Shown here in pieces: positions 2,575 to 15,584 of a stretch of 64,000 bases of DNA. The stretch is from Synechococcus sp. PCC 6312 (GTDB lineage Bacteria; Cyanobacteriota; Cyanobacteriia; Thermosynechococcales; Thermosynechococcaceae). The position numbers and the translations under genes were made by a program. Position 1 is the first letter of the stretch; each line of letters opens with the position of its first letter. The stretch spans positions 311,501-375,500 of the forward strand of contig NC_019680.1 in the NCBI RefSeq assembly GCF_000316685.1, given 5' to 3'. The notes beneath the pieces are model-generated. The model was given only the letters and a program-made list of their open reading frames with translations, was not told where the DNA came from and searched no databases.

Positions 2575-5142
2575 TTAAAACTCAATCCCAAATGTCCCAC
2601 TGACGGCAAACGGCCGGCCTGGGTCAATACCTAAACGACTACCGAAAGTTGCAGCAGTAAAATAGTTAATATCGAATAAATTTTCAATATTCAACTGCAT
2701 CCGCCAGTTGTCCCGCCGATAATACAAGGCAGCATCAGTACGGAAATAGCTGGGGAGAATGAAGGTATTCTCTAGATCGCCATACCTGCTATCCACATAG
2801 AAAAGACCCAGGCCAAAGCCCAAGCCTTTCGCCATCCCTTCCTGAATCTCATAGGTTGACCACAGAGTAAATTGATTTGGTGGGACGTTGGCCAGTTGGT
2901 TGCCGACAATATCGGTGTTGTCCTGACTGACAAACGCATCTACATAGGCATAACCAGCAGTTAGGTTCCAACCGGGTAAAACCTCACCACCTATGTTAAT
3001 TTCAAAGCCACGGCTGGCCACTTCTCCCGTTTGCAGCGTAAATATGGGATTGGCAGGATCAGGGGTTTGGACATTTTGTTTGCGAATATCGTAGAGGGCT
3101 AGGGTTAAGCTCAACCGCTCTAAAATATCCGTCTTGACACCCACTTCAAACTGCCGGCCTGTTTCCGGATCAAAACCTGAACCATCGGCATTTAAACTCG
3201 CCCCAAAGGAGGGGTCGAAAGACGTTGTGTAAGAGGCATAGAGAGAGACGGGTTCAATCGGTTGATAGACAATGCCAAACCTAGGGGTCAAAGCACCATC
3301 CCTTTGGGTAAATTCTTCCCGTGGCGCACCCAAATCTCGAGTTGTCCGAAACTGATCTACATAGTCATAGCGCACCCCGGCTAATAGCTTCAGGTTAGAC
3401 AGTAATTCAATCTGATCTTGAACATAAATGCCAATAGTATTGACCGTATCATCTCGGAAAAATATCGGAGCAACTGAGTAGGGAAGGTTGGCATAGATTG
3501 GATTGAAGATATTAATCGAAGGATAATCGCCAAATTGAAACTGTGGGGTTTCAGCCTCGTGACGGTATTCGGTTCCAAATAAAAGCTGATGTTTGACAAA
3601 GCCTGTGTTGAACTTGCCTACCACTTCGGCATTGGTAAAGAAGCGGCTGTAAGTCCCACCTGCCAAGTATTCAATACGATTCAATTTACCTGTTGCTTCA
3701 TCCAAAAAATCGGGCAGAGGTGAATAGCGTTGGGGTTGATACTGGATATATTGCAGGTTATGGCGGAATGACACATTGTCATTGAAACGATGATTCAGAC
3801 CATAACCCAATAGAAACTGACTCTGCGTGAACTCATTAAACGGTTCTCCCAGAAAACGATTCCGGGGCAGATCAGCCGGACGATTACCAATGGCCACAAT
3901 CCCTCGATCAACGGTCTCTCGCGTGCTGGAAAACTGACCATAGAAATTCATTGCTGTATCTGGGGTAATGTCCCAACTCAGAATCGGGGAGATCAGCAAT
4001 TGCTCGCCGCTCACGAAATCCCGAAAGCTGCCATAGTTGTCATAGGCAATATTGAGGCGATATTTGACGGTTTTGGCATCATTCAGGGGGCCGGAAAGAT
4101 CGATGGCCGTCTGATAGGTATTAAAATTACCCACTGTAAATGAAGCTGCATACCGGGGATCCGATAAGGGTAATTTGGGAACTAAATTAATAATCCCCCC
4201 TGGCTGTCCTTGACCATAAAGCACAGAAGCTGGGCCTTGCAGAACTTCAACCCGCTCAATATCGGCCAGGTTCAAGGGGCCTAATGAAATGTTAGGAATT
4301 CGATCACGAAAAATACTAGAATCGACATTAAAACCACGAATCAGAAAGCCGGGGCCAAAGACGCTTGCCCCCCTCCCACCGGCGGGAACAACCCCTGGTA
4401 CAGTTTGCAATGCGCCTCCAAGTTCTGTAACATTCCGGTCTTGAATAACTTGTTGGGGAACAACTTGAATTGAAAAGGGTACATCTCGAATTGGCGTATC
4501 GGTGCCAGTGGCAGAGGATGAGTCGGGGACAAAATAACCCTGTGCTCCATCTGCCGTGACAACAATTTCAATCCCATCTTGAGCAATATCTGGGGTCGGA
4601 GTCGGGCGGACTTGTTCGGTTTGGGGACTAGGAATTGGGGATGCGGTTAAACCAATGACAGCGACGAGTTGCCCTTCGGCTTGCTGGAACTGCACCGTGG
4701 GTGTGCCGCTTTTACCAATCACAATCACTTGGACGGTGTTATCGGGGCCGGGTTTGACTTGCACAGAGGTAATGGTGGCGGTTGGGTCAGCTTGTTGAAA
4801 TTCAGTCTGATTAGGTAGGCTTAATTGGGCACTTTGAATGATGGCGGTGAGGGTTGTGCCCTGTTGCTCGGTCGTAACTCGGAAATCGGCTCCCCCAGGC
4901 AAGGTAAAGAGAATCTGAATTCCGGTTTCCGTGGGCTGAACTTCAACCCCTGTAATTTCTCCCACCGGGGCCTGGGCCAGTTGATTGGGCGGAATAATCG
5001 GAGTTTGGGCTTGCCACTGCTCATGGGCCTGGAGCCATTCTTGGACGGTTTGGGCGGGCTTGTTTTCACTGGCTGAGGCTGATTCCAAGGGAATTGCAAG
5101 AGAGGCCAATAAAAAAATAGGAAATTTTCGCATTAATTTCAT
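2575..5142 (-). CDS. TonB-dependent siderophore receptor with N-terminal AMIN domain (receptor 2)
   Basis: A complete 855-residue outer-membrane receptor. The ATG at 5142 is preferred over an upstream non-consensus start at 5169 because GAGGAG sits just before it and the signal peptide then begins MKLMRKFPIFLLASLAIPL. An AMIN domain (about 50-160), a linker rich in Pro and Thr, EIVVTADGAQGYF around the TonB box, a plug with VPFSIQVVPQQV and a barrel ending in the usual aromatic residue (GTFGIEF) follow. AMIN domains fused to such receptors are a known cyanobacterial arrangement; their role here is not established. Spacing of 60 bases from exbD and 53 bases to receptor 1 indicates one operon, probably iron-regulated. 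Confidence 0.93.
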   Translation of the reverse strand: MKLMRKFPIFLLASLAIPLESASASENKPAQTVQEWLQAHEQWQAQTPIIPPNQLAQAPVGEITGVEVQPTETGIQILFTLPGGADFRVTTEQQGTTLTAIIQSAQLSLPNQTEFQQADPTATITSVQVKPGPDNTVQVIVIGKSGTPTVQFQQAEGQLVAVIGLTASPIPSPQTEQVRPTPTPDIAQDGIEIVVTADGAQGYFVPDSSSATGTDTPIRDVPFSIQVVPQQVIQDRNVTELGGALQTVPGVVPAGGRGASVFGPGFLIRGFNVDSSIFRDRIPNISLGPLNLADIERVEVLQGPASVLYGQGQPGGIINLVPKLPLSDPRYAASFTVGNFNTYQTAIDLSGPLNDAKTVKYRLNIAYDNYGSFRDFVSGEQLLISPILSWDITPDTAMNFYGQFSSTRETVDRGIVAIGNRPADLPRNRFLGEPFNEFTQSQFLLGYGLNHRFNDNVSFRHNLQYIQYQPQRYSPLPDFLDEATGKLNRIEYLAGGTYSRFFTNAEVVGKFNTGFVKHQLLFGTEYRHEAETPQFQFGDYPSINIFNPIYANLPYSVAPIFFRDDTVNTIGIYVQDQIELLSNLKLLAGVRYDYVDQFRTTRDLGAPREEFTQRDGALTPRFGIVYQPIEPVSLYASYTTSFDPSFGASLNADGSGFDPETGRQFEVGVKTDILERLSLTLALYDIRKQNVQTPDPANPIFTLQTGEVASRGFEINIGGEVLPGWNLTAGYAYVDAFVSQDNTDIVGNQLANVPPNQFTLWSTYEIQEGMAKGLGFGLGLFYVDSRYGDLENTFILPSYFRTDAALYYRRDNWRMQLNIENLFDINYFTAATFGSRLGIDPGRPFAVSGTFGIEF

Positions 5143-9195: not shown

Positions 9196-9257
9196 ATAAC
9201 CGTATATCCCACCGATCCTGGCCCTCAGTTCCGTGATAAGCTCCCAATCAAGATGCG

Positions 9258-9671
9258 ATGAATGGTCATACCACCTTGAAAGAAATTATTCGGACTGATG
9301 CGGCTCCGGCCCCCGTTGGCCCCTATAACCAAGCGATTCGGGCCACAGGCTCATTGCTTTTTGTTGCTGGGCAGATCCCCTTAGATCCCAAGACAGGGGG
9401 CCTGGTTGGCGGAGAGGATGTGGCAGCCCAAACAAAACAAGTGATGGCGAACCTCGAAGCAATTTTGCTGGAAGCGGGCCTGGCCTGGGAGAATGTCGTC
9501 AAAACAACGGTTTTCCTTGCCGATCTAGCCGACTTTGTGGCGATGAACGATGTCTATGCCCAATATTTTGCTGAAGGCCATGCTCCGGCCCGGGCCTGTG
9601 TGGAAGTGGCACGGTTGCCTAAAGATGTGCGGGTTGAGATTGATTGCATTGCGGTTAGTCCCCAGGCCTGA
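9258..9671 (+). CDS. ridA: RidA family reactive intermediate/imine deaminase
   Basis: 137-residue cytosolic protein that hydrolyses reactive enamine/imine intermediates formed by PLP enzymes. The family signature is clear: [29 protein letters not shown] near the N-terminus and [20 protein letters not shown] near the C-terminus, including the substrate-binding Arg. Length is typical. It stands alone after the porin; the next gene on the same strand is far away. Confidence 0.93.
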
Positions 9672-10059
9672 GGCCATAACCTGAAATTAGATCAACAAAA
9701 AAGTCTCAACTGTCATTCAAACAAAGGGTCAAGGCTTTCTTCATTTTATTTGGTGGCGGGGCACTTCATCCGACTAAAGCCTGAAAGCACTGATGTATAA
9801 GAATTCTTATTGAGACTACCTCATTGGTTACCCTCAAAAGTTGTTGCTTATTTGAAATGAGAAGTAGAGTTTTTTAAGAGACCACTGGGGTTTATTGTCC
9901 TATCTTAGGTCTTTCATCTGCCAGGCCCAGAATTGGTATGGACAGTAAGGTGGCAGCTTGTATTTAGTTTGAGAAGTTTGAAGTCTCAATCAGACATGGG
10001 ACGGTCACCAATGAAATTTAATTGTTTGAATTAACCCAAGCCCTCACCTGGGTATTTTT
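9672..10059. other. Gene-poor spacer of 388 bases holding a possible attachment-site half
   Basis: No convincing reading frame on either strand. It contains the 11-base copy of the tRNA-fMet 3' end at 9754-9764, described separately. A loose inverted repeat (AGGCTTT at 9732-9738, AAAGCCT at 9776-9782, 37-base loop) encloses that copy. The spacer marks the change from the iron locus to the accessory region. Confidence 0.5.
9754..9764 (-). repeat. Direct repeat of tRNA-fMet 3' end (candidate att site, left copy)
   Basis: On the minus strand this reads GTGCCCCGCCA, identical to the last 11 bases of the tRNA-fMet gene (14274-14284), in the same orientation. Here it is followed by CCAAATAAA, compared with TAAATAA after the tRNA gene. 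An 11-base match within 4.5 kb is unlikely by chance. It is what integration at the 3' end of a tRNA would leave at the far end of an island. No integrase is present to support it. Confidence 0.4.
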
Positions 10060-10407
10060 TTAGGGATGGTCAAACCAGAGAACCTTAATCACGCCGCCGC
10101 CCACTAACGTCACCAGGCCCACAATGAACGTCCAGAGGCGGGCATCCGTAGAACCTTGCTGAATGTGAAGTTCGTTAACGTCATCACGGAGTTCAGACCG
10201 TAAGCCATCAACCTTGTCATTAACTGCCTTAATCTCGCTCTTAAGTTCAGCTCTGACTGCCTCCACTTTGTCATTGAGTGCCTTGAACTGTTCATCATTC
10301 TTAGCCTGGTTAACTCTGACCTCCAAGGTTAAGGCTTGCATATCATTCCTCATAGCTTGGATCGCTCCCAATATGGCCTGGGTATCCGATGCTGTTAACT
10401 CACTCAT
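10060..10407 (-). CDS. Small coiled-coil protein with C-terminal membrane segment, function unknown
   Basis: 115 residues from the ATG at 10407, which follows GGGAGAT and overlaps the end of the upstream gene by 8 bases. A further upstream start would lie inside that gene. Residues about 10-85 are heptad-like and highly charged (VEAVRAELKSEIKAVNDKVD; GLRSELRDDVNELHIQQGST). The C-terminal stretch TFIVGLVTLVGGGVIKVLWF is a membrane anchor. The layout recalls phage or accessory-element coiled-coil membrane proteins, but no family is recognised with confidence. Confidence 0.75.
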   Translation of the reverse strand: MSELTASDTQAILGAIQAMRNDMQALTLEVRVNQAKNDEQFKALNDKVEAVRAELKSEIKAVNDKVDGLRSELRDDVNELHIQQGSTDARLWTFIVGLVTLVGGGVIKVLWFDHP

Positions 10408-10744
10408 TACTATCTCCCTTGGGTTTACGCCCTCTACGTTTTTGAACTGGGAGAGCTTTGGCAACATCCCCAGGCCTGGTAGTTGCTCCCAATTTGGGAA
10501 CATCATCTAGCCCCCCGATCGGTTCACTTGGGGAGGGGTTCATCAATTCCCGCTGTGCAGCTTCAGTGATCACACGCCGAAGCCAGGGAGTTTTGTGCTT
10601 ACCCATTGCTCTTACTGCTTGGTAAACGGGCATTTCAACCCTCACCTGTAAAGGCTGGGGAGATAACTTATCTTCAGTATCATCCAGCCTCTCAAACTGC
10701 GAATCAAGGAACTTGGGAGGCAAAAACGGATTTGGATTAGCCAT
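10400..10744 (-). CDS. Small basic-tailed protein, possible DNA-binding regulator
   Basis: 114 residues. The middle (PLQVRVEMPVYQAVRAMGKH) resembles a short strand followed by helices as in ribbon-helix-helix proteins, and the tail is strongly basic with an AT-hook-like core (VQKRRGRKPKGD). Both traits suggest DNA binding, but this is inference. It overlaps the coiled-coil membrane protein gene by 8 bases, so the two form a coupled pair. A 9-base inverted repeat just upstream (10771-10846) could be its operator. Confidence 0.65.
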   Translation of the reverse strand: MANPNPFLPPKFLDSQFERLDDTEDKLSPQPLQVRVEMPVYQAVRAMGKHKTPWLRRVITEAAQRELMNPSPSEPIGGLDDVPKLGATTRPGDVAKALPVQKRRGRKPKGDSNE

Positions 10745-10770
10745 AAAATAACCATCTCAATACTACCAGT

Positions 10771-10846
10771 GTACAGGCATTAGTGAAACTTACATCTTTA
10801 TGCCAGTAAACAAGAAAATACCAATCAAAAATTGCTGTGCCTGTAC
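10771..10846. promoter_or_regulatory. 9-base inverted repeat upstream of the small gene pair
   Basis: GTACAGGCA at 10771-10779 and its exact complement TGCCTGTAC at 10838-10846 flank 58 bases. The left arm is 27 bases before the start of the possible DNA-binding gene. It could be a pair of operator half-sites, a hairpin or an element end; sequence alone does not decide. Confidence 0.4.
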
Positions 10847-10902
10847 GATAAATAAGTTCAATTTGTGGCCTGTGGGGAGTGACTAACCAGTCCAGTTTTT
10901 GC

Positions 10903-11278
10903 TCATTTCACACTAAAGACTGTCATCACTTCATCGCCAAGATGGTTGATCACTTTAGCGGTAATCCGGCCAGACTGAAGTTTTGGAAATGGGCGAGAGG
11001 TATCCCTATACAAACTATTTCAGGCCTGTTCATCAATTTCGCTTTGGCGGCGCATTGACAACTAAATCCGACCAATCTTGCTCATCCTTGCCATGCTACA
11101 CCAACTGCGGGCCTAAATCTCGATTGCACCGTTCGTAGGCCACTTGAATTGGGGTTTTGTCCGCATCCGACATTAACGACTCATACTCAGCCGTGGGAAT
11201 ATTTTTCCGGGTATCAGCCCCATATTTCAGGGTTTCAACCTGTTTGTTGGTGCTTGTAATCCTTCTCCGGGCAGCCAT
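10903..11278 (-). pseudogene. Remnant of a site-specific adenine DNA methyltransferase (type III-like R-M), internal deletion
   Basis: The start (MAARRRITSTNKQVETLKYG; YERCNRDLGPQLV; then GKDEQDWSDLVVNAPP) and the end (EIDEQA; TSRPFPKLQSGRITAKVINH; LGDEVMTVFSVK) match the two ends of type III-like methyltransferases as I recall them. The several hundred residues between, including the catalytic core, are gone. A TAG at 11096-11098 and a TGA at 11020-11022 both stand where family members have Trp. The two preserved ends lie in different frames, so the deletion near 11050 was out of phase. It begins 1 base after the Fic gene ends, so it was the last gene of the operon. Confidence 0.75.
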
Positions 11279-11279
11279 A

Positions 11280-12404
11280 CTATAAACTCTCTCCAGTCAA
11301 AATTTGATAAAGAGCGGTATTGATATAAAAATTAGAGCGACCAATTTTGCGTTTTTCCAGAAACCCTCCTGAAACCAGTTCGTTCAAATACTTAGTCGCC
11401 GTTAGTCTTGTCACATTCAAATCTCTTTGGACAAACTCAATTTTGGTATAGGGATGCTTAAACAGATTATTGATTAAGTCTTGGCTATAAAACTTATACT
11501 GTTTGCGGATGTGATGCTTCATTTCTAATAACAAAGCCTTGATCGCTAAAATCGTCTCAATCGTCTGTGTTGCAGTTTCTTCAACAGCCGTGAGCATATA
11601 GAGTATCCAGTCTTCCCAAAGGTTTTTATCTCGCACCCGTTGTAGCAGACAATAGTAATCGGCCTTAGTCCGAACAATAGACCGACTGAGATATAAGACC
11701 GGAATATCCAATAATCCTTCTTTAACCAGATATAAGACATTGATAATCCGTCCCGTCCGACCATTGCCATCGTAAAACGGGTGAATACTCTCAAACTGAT
11801 GATGAATAATCGCCATCTTAATCAGCGGATCAGTGATAAAAATCGGCTCCTCATTCATAAACCGCTCTAACTCGCCCATCATCTCTGGAACCACATCTGG
11901 CGGGGGTGGCGCATAAACCACATGACCAAAATTATCCTTCAGGACTGTGCTTGGAACTTTGCGAAACCCAGCCCGGTTATGCTCTAGCGTGGCCTGGATG
12001 TTCAAAATGTGATTCAGCGTCAGGAGTCCAGTGGCTTGCACGGCTTCAAACCCAACTCGCAGGGCCTCACGGTAACGTAATACTTCTTTCCCGGCTAAGC
12101 TGTGTTGGTCATCCGGCAAGAGATCATCCTTGAATAGCTCATCATGGGTCGTGATGATATTTTCGATGGCTGAACTATCTTTTGCCTCTTGCAGAGCTAA
12201 TGTATTGATTAAAATACTTTGATTGGGGATTGTTCCAGCAATACCTTTGAGTTCCGCCAGCTTCCGACTGGTCGTTGCCAACTTCTTCAAGATCGCCACG
12301 GTCTCAAATTGTCTGGGCGAAAGACTTCCCAACGATGTGTAAGCTGTCATCAGAGACACCGGGCCTGGGTTGACGTGTATAGGAAAAGCGGTTTTTGTAT
12401 ACAT
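11280..12404 (-). CDS. Fic family protein (probable AMP transferase), DUF4172-like N-terminus
   Basis: 374 residues. The Fic core motif HPFYDGNGRTGR is intact (about residues 210-222), including the catalytic His and the phosphate-binding Asn-Gly-Arg. Near residue 80, SSAIENI matches the (S/T)xxxE(G/N)-type inhibitory helix on the N-terminal side, so this is a self-inhibited class II Fic protein. The C-terminus (FKHPYTKIEFVQRDLNVTRL; TATKYLNELVSGGFLEKRKI) is a winged-helix DNA-binding domain. Family members transfer AMP to Tyr, Ser or Thr of target proteins; the target here is unknown. It sits inside a decayed restriction-modification operon yet shows no damage. Confidence 0.9.
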   Translation of the reverse strand: MYTKTAFPIHVNPGPVSLMTAYTSLGSLSPRQFETVAILKKLATTSRKLAELKGIAGTIPNQSILINTLALQEAKDSSAIENIITTHDELFKDDLLPDDQHSLAGKEVLRYREALRVGFEAVQATGLLTLNHILNIQATLEHNRAGFRKVPSTVLKDNFGHVVYAPPPPDVVPEMMGELERFMNEEPIFITDPLIKMAIIHHQFESIHPFYDGNGRTGRIINVLYLVKEGLLDIPVLYLSRSIVRTKADYYCLLQRVRDKNLWEDWILYMLTAVEETATQTIETILAIKALLLEMKHHIRKQYKFYSQDLINNLFKHPYTKIEFVQRDLNVTRLTATKYLNELVSGGFLEKRKIGRSNFYINTALYQILTGESL

Positions 12405-12445
12405 ATCCTAGGCAATGTGTATAGTTTTGGCCTGTTTTTGCTTAA

Positions 12446-12724
12446 TCACATCATGGCCTGCCCAGTCTGCTCAGTATTAATGGACTGTAAAGATTGCACT
12501 TGGGCGGCTGCATAGTGTTGATACCGCTCAATTTCTTGTTGCAGATTAGGAACAGATTCCCACTCTCCCGCTTCGATGGAGTTCATCAAGGCCTGTTCTT
12601 CTGCATCAAGTTCAAAATCCCAATAACGGCGGGGAATATCCTTGAGTTGAGGCTGAAAACCACCCATTTTGGCTAATGCTTGTGCGGCCAGTTTCGCTTT
12701 AGGTGTTTCATTCGTTTGCGACAT
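12446..12724 (-). CDS. Small hypothetical protein next to Uma2
   Basis: 92 residues, mostly helical and acidic in the middle (IPRRYWDFELDAEEQALMNS; IEAGEWESVPNLQQEIERYQ). The pattern, a short N-terminal helix followed by an ESI/EAGEW-type stretch, resembles small antitoxin-like proteins of cyanobacteria, but no characterised family is recognised. It starts 2 bases after the Uma2 stop codon, so it is co-transcribed and probably coupled with it. It is 41 bases from the Fic gene downstream. Confidence 0.65.
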   Translation of the reverse strand: MSQTNETPKAKLAAQALAKMGGFQPQLKDIPRRYWDFELDAEEQALMNSIEAGEWESVPNLQQEIERYQHYAAAQVQSLQSINTEQTGQAMM

Positions 12725-12726
12725 GG

Positions 12727-13314
12727 TTAGTCACCCAACACAGATTCATAAAGGTCAGCCAACGCAATCTCTACCCCAACAGAGACTAACTTGATTGAGG
12801 TATCCAGCCCACTGTGGTCAGTGAATAACCATTGATGATCCGCTTGCTTCACAAATTGCTCCACATAGGGCCTGGCCTGGTCAATGACCAAATATTCCTG
12901 AAATGTGGGAATCGTCCGATAAGCGGCAAACTTATCGCCCCGGTCATAGGGACTGGTTGAATCCGACAACACCTCAGCAATCAAGAGGGGATTTGTTACC
13001 GTATCTCTGCGGTTATCTTGTAACACCACCGGATCAGCAATCACCATCACATCAGGGTAGGTATAGACCTTAAACTCTGGAACCCATAACCGTTGATTCG
13101 TAATGAAAATGCTGTAGGATTTCTTCCGCAAACTAAACCACAACACTGCATACAACGCCCCCGCCACTTTGTTGTGTTCCGGTGTACCTCCCGTCATGCA
13201 CACAATTTCTCCATGGCGATATTCCCGGCGCAGGCCATCCGTCACTTCCGCCTCAGCTTCTAGGGAGAAGTAGTCCTCAACGGTATAAGGAGGTTTGGAT
13301 AGGATAGCTGTCAT
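12727..13314 (-). CDS. Uma2 family (DUF820) putative PD-(D/E)xK endonuclease
   Basis: 195 residues. Family landmarks are present: the N-terminal YTVEDYFSLE, GLRREYRHGEIVCMTGGTPE, YPDVMVIADP (active-site Asp) and LLIAEVLSDSTSPYDRGDKF (Glu plus partner residues), with YLVIDQ near the end. These form the predicted restriction-endonuclease-like fold; biochemical activity of the family is unproven. Its ATG overlaps the stop codon of the restriction-subunit remnant by 3 bases within ATGA, so it was translationally coupled to it. The reading frame is intact. Confidence 0.85.
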   Translation of the reverse strand: MTAILSKPPYTVEDYFSLEAEAEVTDGLRREYRHGEIVCMTGGTPEHNKVAGALYAVLWFSLRKKSYSIFITNQRLWVPEFKVYTYPDVMVIADPVVLQDNRRDTVTNPLLIAEVLSDSTSPYDRGDKFAAYRTIPTFQEYLVIDQARPYVEQFVKQADHQWLFTDHSGLDTSIKLVSVGVEIALADLYESVLGD

Positions 13315-14222
13315 GATGATTCTCCTAGCTGTTGGATGAGCCGCCCAAAATTTTCCTCAATCAACTGCTTAAAGTCTGCCTCAATTTCATAGACTTCCTT
13401 AAATTCAGCAAAGGCCCAGCGACCAAACTTACCTAAATTATTAACGCCTGGAACCCAATAATTCTGCATCATATTTGCTTTGTCCTTGGCATCTTCCCCC
13501 GAAAGCTCTTAATCTCCACCACTAGGTTTAATAGGTCAGCGTCCCCATGCCTAGCATCCACCCGGGCAATAAAATCGGGAATATATTTGCGGGGGCATCC
13601 GACAAAATTCAGCCTCCCAATCACTATCGCACACGACCCAATTCACATGGCAATGCCGAGGACTGGTCTGCCACAGCGTTTGCTTCGAGGTACTGAAATT
13701 CACATGACTGGTGCTGCCTGTGGGGTTGTAGGTATCCAGAATCGCTTTAATCGGTTTCTCTTTAGCCGTTCCTTCTGTAATCGCTGCCTTAATCCGTTCA
13801 CAGGCCATATCCGCGATTTCGCGATCCATCAACTGCCCTAAAGATGTCCCTCCAGTAAATTTGAAATAGCTTTCAATCCAGGCCTGGACAATCCGCCTCA
13901 GTTGTCCAAACAAAAAACAACTTTGGTTCATCTCCGGGATACCGAAACTTGTTGTAGAGTGAATGCTTTGTCAACTCATAGACGACTGTGTTCTGCCGAA
14001 TGTTTTCCAAATCCTTAATCGTTAAACCAACCCCTTCGCCAATAATTCCATCATTGCGTATCACCATTGGCCCGACAAATCCGGGGTCAGCTTCAACTCG
14101 GAATCCGCCGTACAGGTAGCCGTCAGTTTAGTTTCGGGTAACTCAGTTCGATAGCCCTGCACCTGTGGGAACGTAATCTCTAACGCATCCCCAATGAGAC
14201 TGAACTCGATAAAAGAAATGCC
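13311..14222 (-). pseudogene. 3' remnant of a type III-like restriction endonuclease (Res) subunit, several frameshifts
   Basis: Translation in shifting frames recovers the C-terminal part of a helicase-type restriction subunit in order: IEFSLIGDALEITFPQVQGY, then RNDGIIGEGVGLTIKDLENI and LTKHSLYNKFRYPGDEPKLF, then FGQLRRIVQAWIESYFKFTG and SHVNFSTSKQTLWQTSPRHC with CDSDWEAEFCR, then a small deletion, PRKYIPDFIARVDA and LLNLVVEIKSFRG, then MQNYWVPGVNNLGKFGRWAF to the end. Frame changes lie near 14067, 13925, 13600 and 13500. The DEAD-type helicase half is missing altogether, up to the tRNA gene. The stop codon overlaps the Uma2 start. Confidence 0.8.
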
Positions 14223-14273
14223 CACAAGTCACTTAAACAAAGGACTTATGGACAATCTCAGATTAGTTATTTA

Positions 14274-14347
<74 letters not shown>

Positions 14348-14435
14348 TTATCCAGGAATTTAACTATAGCGCATATTCCAGCCTGTTGACCAGGCCCGGT
14401 GACAAAAATGTTGACATTTATCAAAATTAAAAGCA

Positions 14436-15584
14436 TCAAGCGTCTTCAGACCCAAATAAGTCAACTGGGGCATCCATGCGTTCTGTTTGGCGGGAATCGG
14501 TGATCAACCAATCCAAGGCTGCTGCGCGCACATCAATAGTCGTCCCATTTTTATCCACGCAATAACGCCCAAACACCAACTTATCCACCAACCGGATCCC
14601 AGCCCCGAGACGGGAATATTCAAAGATTACACAGTTATCTACAACTGCGCCACTGCAAACACAGCAATTGGGGCCAATCATGGTCGGGCCAATAATTGTC
14701 ACTCCATCCTCAATCCGGGTCATGCCGCCAATATAAACCGGCCCTTGGATATTCACCTTGTCCCAATTGACTGCTACATTGATCCCGGTATAAATATTCG
14801 GAGCCACCTCCCGGCCTGGGATTTGCACATTAGCAACCTGGCCCGCTAAAACACTCCGCACCGCCTGCCAATAATCCGGGACTTTACCAATATCAACCCA
14901 CTCAAAGTCCATCGTCAGTCCGAAAAAGGGCGCGCCCATCTCCACAAGTTTGGGAAACAGTTGGCTGCCAATGTCATACTCTACACCCGAGGGAATTAAA
15001 TCTAAAATCTCCGGTTCAAAGATATAAATCCCCGTATTGATCAGCGTACTCAGAGCGTCTTCGACATTGGGTTTTTCCTGAAAGGCCTTGATCCGATGTT
15101 CGGCATCTGTAACCACAACCCCATAACTGGAGACTTCCTCCCTGGAGACATCTCGCAAAATAATTGTCGCAAGGGCTCCTTTTTGACGGTGCCAGGCCAC
15201 GGCTTTGGTTAAATCTAAATCAATCAGGGCATCCCCACACAGCACCACAAACGTATCATCAAAAAACGGGTTAAAATCCTGAATCCGTTTCATGCCTCCA
15301 GCCGAACCTAAGGCCTTACCCACCAGCTTGCCGTCCTCAATATAGCCCTCAAAGGAATAGGCAATCTGCACTCCAAACCGCTGCCCATCCTGGAAATATT
15401 CTTCAATTTCGTGGGCCAAGTGGCTGACATTGACCATAATTTCCGTAAAGCCGTGTTGCCGCAGTAATTCCACCAAAAACTCCATCACTGGCTTTTGCAG
15501 AATTGGGATCATTGGCTTGGGAATTGTGTAGGTGATGGGGCGAACCCGCGTTCCTTTCCCTGCGGCCAAAATCATTGCTTTCAT
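14436..15584 (-). CDS. Sugar-1-phosphate nucleotidyltransferase (mannose-1-phosphate guanylyltransferase-like)
   Basis: 382-residue NDP-sugar pyrophosphorylase. The N-terminal nucleotidyltransferase fold carries the nucleotide-binding motif MILAAGKGTRVRPITYTIPK at residues 3-22 and VVLCGDALIDLDL for metal binding. The C-terminal third has left-handed beta-helix hexapeptides (TGINVAVNWDKVNIQGPVYI; IGPTMIGPNCCVCSGAVVDN). It probably makes GDP-mannose or a related sugar nucleotide for polysaccharide; the exact sugar is not decided by sequence. Many cyanobacterial relatives are over 800 residues because of a fused phosphomannomutase-like domain, which is absent here. It is a single gene between tRNA-fMet and the HTH protein. 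Confidence 0.85.
   Translation of the reverse strand: MKAMILAAGKGTRVRPITYTIPKPMIPILQKPVMEFLVELLRQHGFTEIMVNVSHLAHEIEEYFQDGQRFGVQIAYSFEGYIEDGKLVGKALGSAGGMKRIQDFNPFFDDTFVVLCGDALIDLDLTKAVAWHRQKGALATIILRDVSREEVSSYGVVVTDAEHRIKAFQEKPNVEDALSTLINTGIYIFEPEILDLIPSGVEYDIGSQLFPKLVEMGAPFFGLTMDFEWVDIGKVPDYWQAVRSVLAGQVANVQIPGREVAPNIYTGINVAVNWDKVNIQGPVYIGGMTRIEDGVTIIGPTMIGPNCCVCSGAVVDNCVIFEYSRLGAGIRLVDKLVFGRYCVDKNGTTIDVRAAALDWLITDSRQTERMDAPVDLFGSEDA

Follow-up and report, generated by a model that had tools for sequence, protein, structure and literature searches.

The window analysed here is a stretch of 64,000 nucleotides of the Synechococcus sp. PCC 6312 genome (C1:311501-375500 of an assembly, G000, of 3.72 Mb in two contigs), and the interval 9754-14284 within it most probably represents what is left of an element that had integrated site-specifically at the tRNA-fMet 3' end and has since decayed, a reading to which we assign a probability of roughly 0.88. 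The last 11 bases of this tRNA, TGGCGGGGCAC, occur both at 14274-14284 and, on the same strand about 4.5 kb away, at 9754-9764, as an earlier note on this DNA had pointed out. The genes between the copies are also those it had listed, namely broken restriction-modification (RM) genes, a Fic gene, one Uma2 gene and two small genes, here called p114 (10400-10744) and p148 (10060-10407), to which an open reading frame (ORF) of 92 amino acids has to be added. The central proposal of that note, that the repeat is the trace of an integration event at the end of a tRNA gene and that the integrase has been lost, is supported by a conserved non-coding segment, the 'tail', that lies beside the distal copy and by target fragments that lie at a like distance from most sister copies of this tail. 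The order and orientation of the direct repeat and the presence of a broken RM operon with no other copy in the genome agree with the same reading.

We propose that a tyrosine integrase would have carried out recombination between the chromosome and the tRNA 3' end borne by the element; as the latter was swapped in, tRNA-fMet would have remained intact and the 3' end that it had before would have been displaced to 9754, past the distal end formed by p114, p148 and the tail. The lost integrase was probably of the Arm-DNA-bind_3 type and may once have stood between the tRNA and res. Both large RM genes would have been disabled after entry, with Fic and Uma2 being kept, and the element presumably spread as a defence-carrying hitchhiker.

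The tail and its sister copies

Because 11-mers recur by chance, the 11-nt repeat alone is weak evidence. The window holds 396 same-strand 11-mer pairs 300-4600 bp apart, true repeats included, and the chance rate for such pairs is 0.6 per 100 window positions, or 1.3 per 100 for GC-rich 11-mers. TGGCGGGGCAC itself occurs three times in the genome, the third copy, at C1:666043, having flanks that are dissimilar by eye. In 3 of 20 relatives part of the tRNA-fMet end zone (65 nt, compared with 3.6-17 kb downstream in each case) recurs on the same strand over 11 nt or more; one of these repeats, in G018, is 13 nt long, lies 3.1 kb away and takes in the last tRNA base. The evidence that carries the reading comes from the tail, which at a threshold of E <= 0.001 was found in 2 of 39 genomes, in seven copies that are 73-81% identical to one another (three in the genome under study, four in the relative G002). 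An alignment of the seven places tRNA-like 3' ends at one position past the tail, and it is there that the 9754 copy lies in the window. In six of the seven a 3' fragment of a target lies 95-118 nt past the tail, the individual distances from the tail core being 107 nt in the window, 104 nt for tRNA-Ser(GCT) (L275), 95 nt for tRNA-Val(GAC) (L279), 118 nt for tRNA-Leu(CAA) (L274), 103 nt for a protein gene (L278) and 118 nt for a second tRNA-Ser fragment (L276). At the far end, five of the seven have the full cognate target on the same strand (fMet, Ser, Val, Leu and the protein gene), at distances of 4.5 kb, 11.6 kb, 45 kb, 0.8 kb and 27 kb, respectively. The longest exact fragment matches are 11 nt (fMet), 12 nt (both Ser fragments), 53 nt (Val), 12 nt (protein gene) and 9 nt (Leu), and a 7 x 7 comparison of zones with targets gave 9-53 nt for cognate and 4-9 nt for non-cognate pairs.

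From the fragments, complete Ser and Val tRNAs were predicted beforehand and then located. In the Ser element of G002 the repeat comprises 11-12 bases of the tRNA end plus about 102 bp, with 105 of 114 positions identical, and in the Val element of the own genome the 53 identical nt lie 45 kb away on the same strand. The tRNA-Leu of G002, which directly precedes a p148 gene, was known before its prediction was recorded. As to the nature of the tail, Rfam recognised nothing but tRNA in 9200-14800 up to E 1, and RNAalifold on the seven copies gave -11.9 kcal/mol (covariation term, -0.4), 4 of 21 pairs being changed on both sides. We therefore prefer for it an attachment or arm function, a structured RNA being the less likely alternative.

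A number of results weigh against integration at tRNA-fMet. The Leu match is not above the longest non-cognate match; the tRNA predicted for L278 (3260 kb) is absent from 3251-3308 kb, and the protein-gene match was found after this failure, as the best BLAST pair (16/18, E 0.05; 12 nt shared, 27 kb apart). L276 carries 12 nt of tRNA-Ser with no complete tRNA within 1224-1250 kb, and L277 has no recognised target fragment. Of seven PF00589 matches in the genome none falls in the window, and the G002 integrase described below finds no match in the window at E 0.01. The tRNA side of the window island, compared with integrase-side arms of sister elements, yields nothing above z 3 and has no arm motif. 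The Val copy lacks the arm motif and has a different, longer core, so that no single kind of integrase served all copies. Finally, the relatives offer no empty site for comparison. The earlier note had it that core genes resume right outside the repeat, and this point needs amending: ridA and tRNA-fMet are adjacent in none of the 26 relatives that have both, the caveat being that contig ends could hide adjacency in broken-up genomes. The genes flanking the island thus form no conserved neighbourhood and give no empty-site evidence.

The comparison behind this covered 29 genomes including the own one; ridA is present in 28 of the 29, and of the 27 relatives among these 28 all but G010, hence 26, also have a tRNA-fMet match. 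The closest pair, in G032, is 19 kb apart, with ridA as the sole tested window gene in or around that interval, and ridA, tRNA-fMet and a sugar nucleotidyltransferase gene lie at differing locations across the relatives. A ridA search of genome contigs returned 68 loci, the best 73% identical and none from the same genus, nor is this genus represented among the relatives; the named best matches are cyanobacterial. Near the tRNA-fMet gene of G002 no tail was found within the 19 kb examined.

Integrases and arm sites

In the Ser element (L275/L284) and the protein-gene element (L278/L287) the target is directly followed by an integrase with the domains PF13356, PF22022 and PF00589. The two integrases are 81% identical to each other, and it would seem that close relatives use very different targets, one sitting at tRNA-Ser in G002 and the other at the 3' end of a protein gene that is sulfurtransferase-like by eye (L287 18225-19439 and 19553-20000; C1:3286225-3288000 of the own genome). 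Such an Arm-DNA-bind_3 integrase thus lies by its target in two of the seven tail copies, L274, L276 and L277 not having been searched with it; none is present at the tRNA of the Val element among the ORFs listed, and the window island has none next to its target. The G002 integrase matched 345 phage records, the best at 45% identity, and three loci of viral contigs; one of the three is a full-length match at 39%, the other two are partial. In another part of G002 (L226, C2:742-761 kb) we noticed by eye a primase-like gene and a gene for a 366-residue integrase-like protein beside a groEL-like gene, 10-15 kb downstream of tRNA-fMet.

The integrase-side arms of the Ser and protein-gene elements are alike (z 19), and each contains TGGGGGCA. 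The motif TGGGGGYA occurs once in each of these two arms, and five of the seven tail copies (five of the six sister copies) have it 33-34 nt past the tail core; a looser arm pattern has a background of 0.048 per 100 nt and strand. Two degenerate versions, each one base off, are present in the window (Table 1). What lies beyond the distal core of the Ser element is similar to an integrase-side arm (z 8.8), which suggests that two elements stand there in tandem with the older one worn down. This element further encodes an AlpA-type regulator (PF05930) and a primase-like protein.

Alternative origins of the island

The similarity of the two repeat copies likely extends past the 11 nt into 9681-9753. 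The score of the whole repeat was reached by none or one of 2000 dinucleotide shuffles, depending on the scoring scheme; that of the flanks without the 11-mer was reached by 72 (strict) or 6 (lenient) of 5000 dinucleotide shuffles, by 1 of 300 shuffles in a separate test, and by none of 4000 random pairs and none of 926 GC-matched pairs. BLASTN across the own genome did not pair the flanks (9681-9753 and 14200-14273). After this search the idea that the repeat copies belong to a dispersed repeat was rejected. That the repeat seems to continue past the tRNA end is what one would expect if an RM unit had inserted with no integrase at all and generated a long target duplication, in this case an 85-bp repeat of 11 nt of tRNA plus downstream sequence; RM systems have been suggested to insert with long target duplications of variable length (PMC3031569). 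We regard such an origin as very improbable. It does not predict the tail, the arm motifs, or sister copies with integrases and cognate fragments. Moreover, the sequence past the core of the Ser element resembles, on both sides, the integrase-side arm of the protein-gene element, which points to element sequence rather than duplicated host sequence, and a tandem of elements may likewise account for the weak similarity of the flanks in the window.

The relation of the tail to the small genes raises another possibility, namely that p114, p148 and the tail form a dispersed cassette that settles near gene 3' ends in some other way, with the RM operon being a separate acquisition and the 11-mer a coincidence. 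The own genome has many relatives of these genes (13 matches for p148 and 8 for p114), most of them without a tail, tails occur next to either gene singly, to both or to neither, and 11-mers do recur by chance. Against it stand the fragments at 95-118 nt in six of the seven tails and the cognate full target on the same strand in five, and we give this scenario very little credence. The distal copy might also be what remains of another tRNA-fMet gene that arose by duplication, as it is followed by CCA, like the end of the tRNA-fMet genes of many relatives, CCA not being encoded by the window gene itself. Yet 11750 of the 12780 window positions sampled score at least as well as the 63 bases (9765-9827) that would correspond to the tRNA body, and both the tail similarity and the arm motifs extend toward the 9754 copy, making a duplicated tRNA exceedingly improbable. 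Integration at the tRNA-fMet 3' end hence remains the explanation that we favour.

Gene content of the island and its sister elements

The RM operon, read leftwards, has the order res, Uma2, the 92-residue ORF, Fic and mod (Table 1). Neither res nor mod is complete: the first ~79 codons of mod are joined at 11045/11046 to its last ~47, with ~830 inner codons missing, and res lacks the codons before ~697, save for a possible start. The latter is a tentative assignment, reaching 14225, in which SFIEFSLIG would correspond to the consensus QFFEQPILN; 0.18% of window 9-mers score as high. No other res copy was found in the own genome. Intact relatives of res with an adjoining mod occur in other genomes of the class, and in G123 a Uma2 gene and small ORFs, toxin-antitoxin-like by eye, lie between the two. 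The best solved relatives of the window Fic are 9vjc and SoFic. By eye it keeps HPFYDGNGRTGR and SSAIEN, which fit the known active-site and inhibitory motifs; as these are kept, Fic may still work though the RM enzymes do not.

Table 1. Features of the tRNA-fMet island, in window positions
Feature	Position	Strand	Remarks
tRNA-fMet (CAT), integration target	14274..14347	-	ARAGORN; Rfam RF00005; only match in own genome
tRNA-proximal 11-nt core copy (tRNA 3' end)	14274..14284	-	
res remnant, BPTD_3080-family restriction enzyme (NF046055)	13311..14189	-	kept from codon ~697 on; interrupted by several stops and frameshifts
Uma2-family protein, 195 aa	12727..13314	-	full length; PF05685
92-aa ORF	12446..12724	-	relative of part of the ORF between res and mod in G124
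Fic, SoFic-like protein adenylyltransferase, 374 aa	11280..12404	-	full length
mod remnant, type III methyltransferase	10906..11278	-	PADLOC MTase_III
p114, small basic protein	10400..10744	-	family repeated in own genome
p148, coiled coil and C-terminal hydrophobic segment (by eye)	10060..10407	-	start most likely 10407
Conserved non-coding tail, marking the distal element end	9862..10060	-	best conserved ~9871-9980
Two degenerate arm-type motifs, one base off	9817..9836	-	TGAGGGTA (9829-9836) and TGAGGTA (9817-9823); 35 and 48 nt
Distal 11-nt core copy (displaced tRNA 3' end)	9754..9764	-	107 nt past the tail; between ridA and p148, outside assigned ORFs
Sequence outside the distal core	9681..9753	-	~70% like 14200-14273; possible repeat extension

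Searches with p114 in plasmid records and with p148 in phage records gave no match. An intergenic motif of 17-25 nt similar to GGCCTGGGGAGTGACTAACCAG recurs between small genes of plasmid-like chromosomal stretches and of the plasmid contig of the own genome (window 10866-10890; L253 5802 and 6104; L254 7337; L259 675-697 and 940-966). For the tail copy L277, tRNA-Thr(TGT) was tried as a target and rejected, there being no fragment match. Separately, a motif resembling the tail end, with ATCAATGGTTT, lies within 50 nt after the tRNA-Thr(TGT) of G002 (L289 9303-9460) and is perhaps another worn element end. Elsewhere in the window a 300-nt direct repeat (1815-2114 and 4436-4735, 82% identical, 2.6 kb apart) perhaps reflects a duplicated gene.

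The Ser element of G002 (C2:~699.1-710.8 kb) and the protein-gene element of the own genome (C1:~3260.2-3287.6 kb) share with the window the tail, the position of the distal core and the p114 family; unlike the window island they have kept an integrase, and their targets and cargo differ. PADLOC was applied to ten chosen proteins of the two sister elements in the own genome, the G002 elements not being scanned for defence. In the Val element it identified BrxA, BrxB, BrxC (of which the first 608 residues were given), PglX and PglZ, together with a methylase and a nuclease of type I; in the protein-gene element it recognised DISARM through DrmA, DrmD and a partial DrmB. A single 45-kb tRNA-Val element (L285, L286; C1:868-908 kb) thus houses both BREX and type I RM genes. 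All three tail-bearing loci of this genome have defence genes, the type III-like RM operon with Fic, BREX with type I RM, and DISARM.

Relation to known elements and implications

Tycheposons are mobile elements known from Prochlorococcus. The likeness to them lies in a tRNA at the border, a tyrosine recombinase and cargo; unlike in these elements, no recombinase is left in the window, and their defining genes were not compared. A tRNA-Met(cat) border is reported for Methylophilaceae (PMC10872708). Defence cargo on tRNA-integrated elements, P4-like satellites included, is already known (PMC10121019). The likeness to these satellites consists in defence cargo at a tRNA and in the Arm-DNA-bind_3 integrase, AlpA-type regulator and primase-like protein of the G002 Ser element, whereas the host is here a cyanobacterium, the window copy has lost its mobility module (no P4-type integrase, AlpA or primase is found among the island genes), and capsid-control genes of the P4 kind were not looked for. 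The Islander criteria for tRNA islands (PMC4383910) include a 3' tRNA fragment, a length of 2-200 kb and an integrase. The window fragment lies downstream of an intact tRNA in the same orientation, at 4.5 kb and not in a conserved coding domain, but the island has no integrase, so that the integrase filter would reject it; it is a relic rather than an intact island.

Among the literature matches listed there was no paper on this locus, though one may exist, and the shared distal arm across different targets may be a new part of the picture. Going a step further, the tail (a core of ~120 nt plus TGGGGGYA sites) could be a portable distal attachment arm of cyanobacterial elements that were retargeted to fMet, Ser, Leu, Val and protein-gene 3' ends and formed a lineage of defence-carrying hitchhikers; we put this forward tentatively, as an idea somewhat more likely to fail than to stand. 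The tRNA-fMet island itself illustrates that a dead island devoid of an integrase can still be supported through a conserved end that predicts the position of the displaced tRNA fragment. It would bring three defence loci of a single cyanobacterial genome together in one family of integrative elements, and it would represent a worn-out case in which the restriction enzymes are disabled and Fic and Uma2 are still full length.

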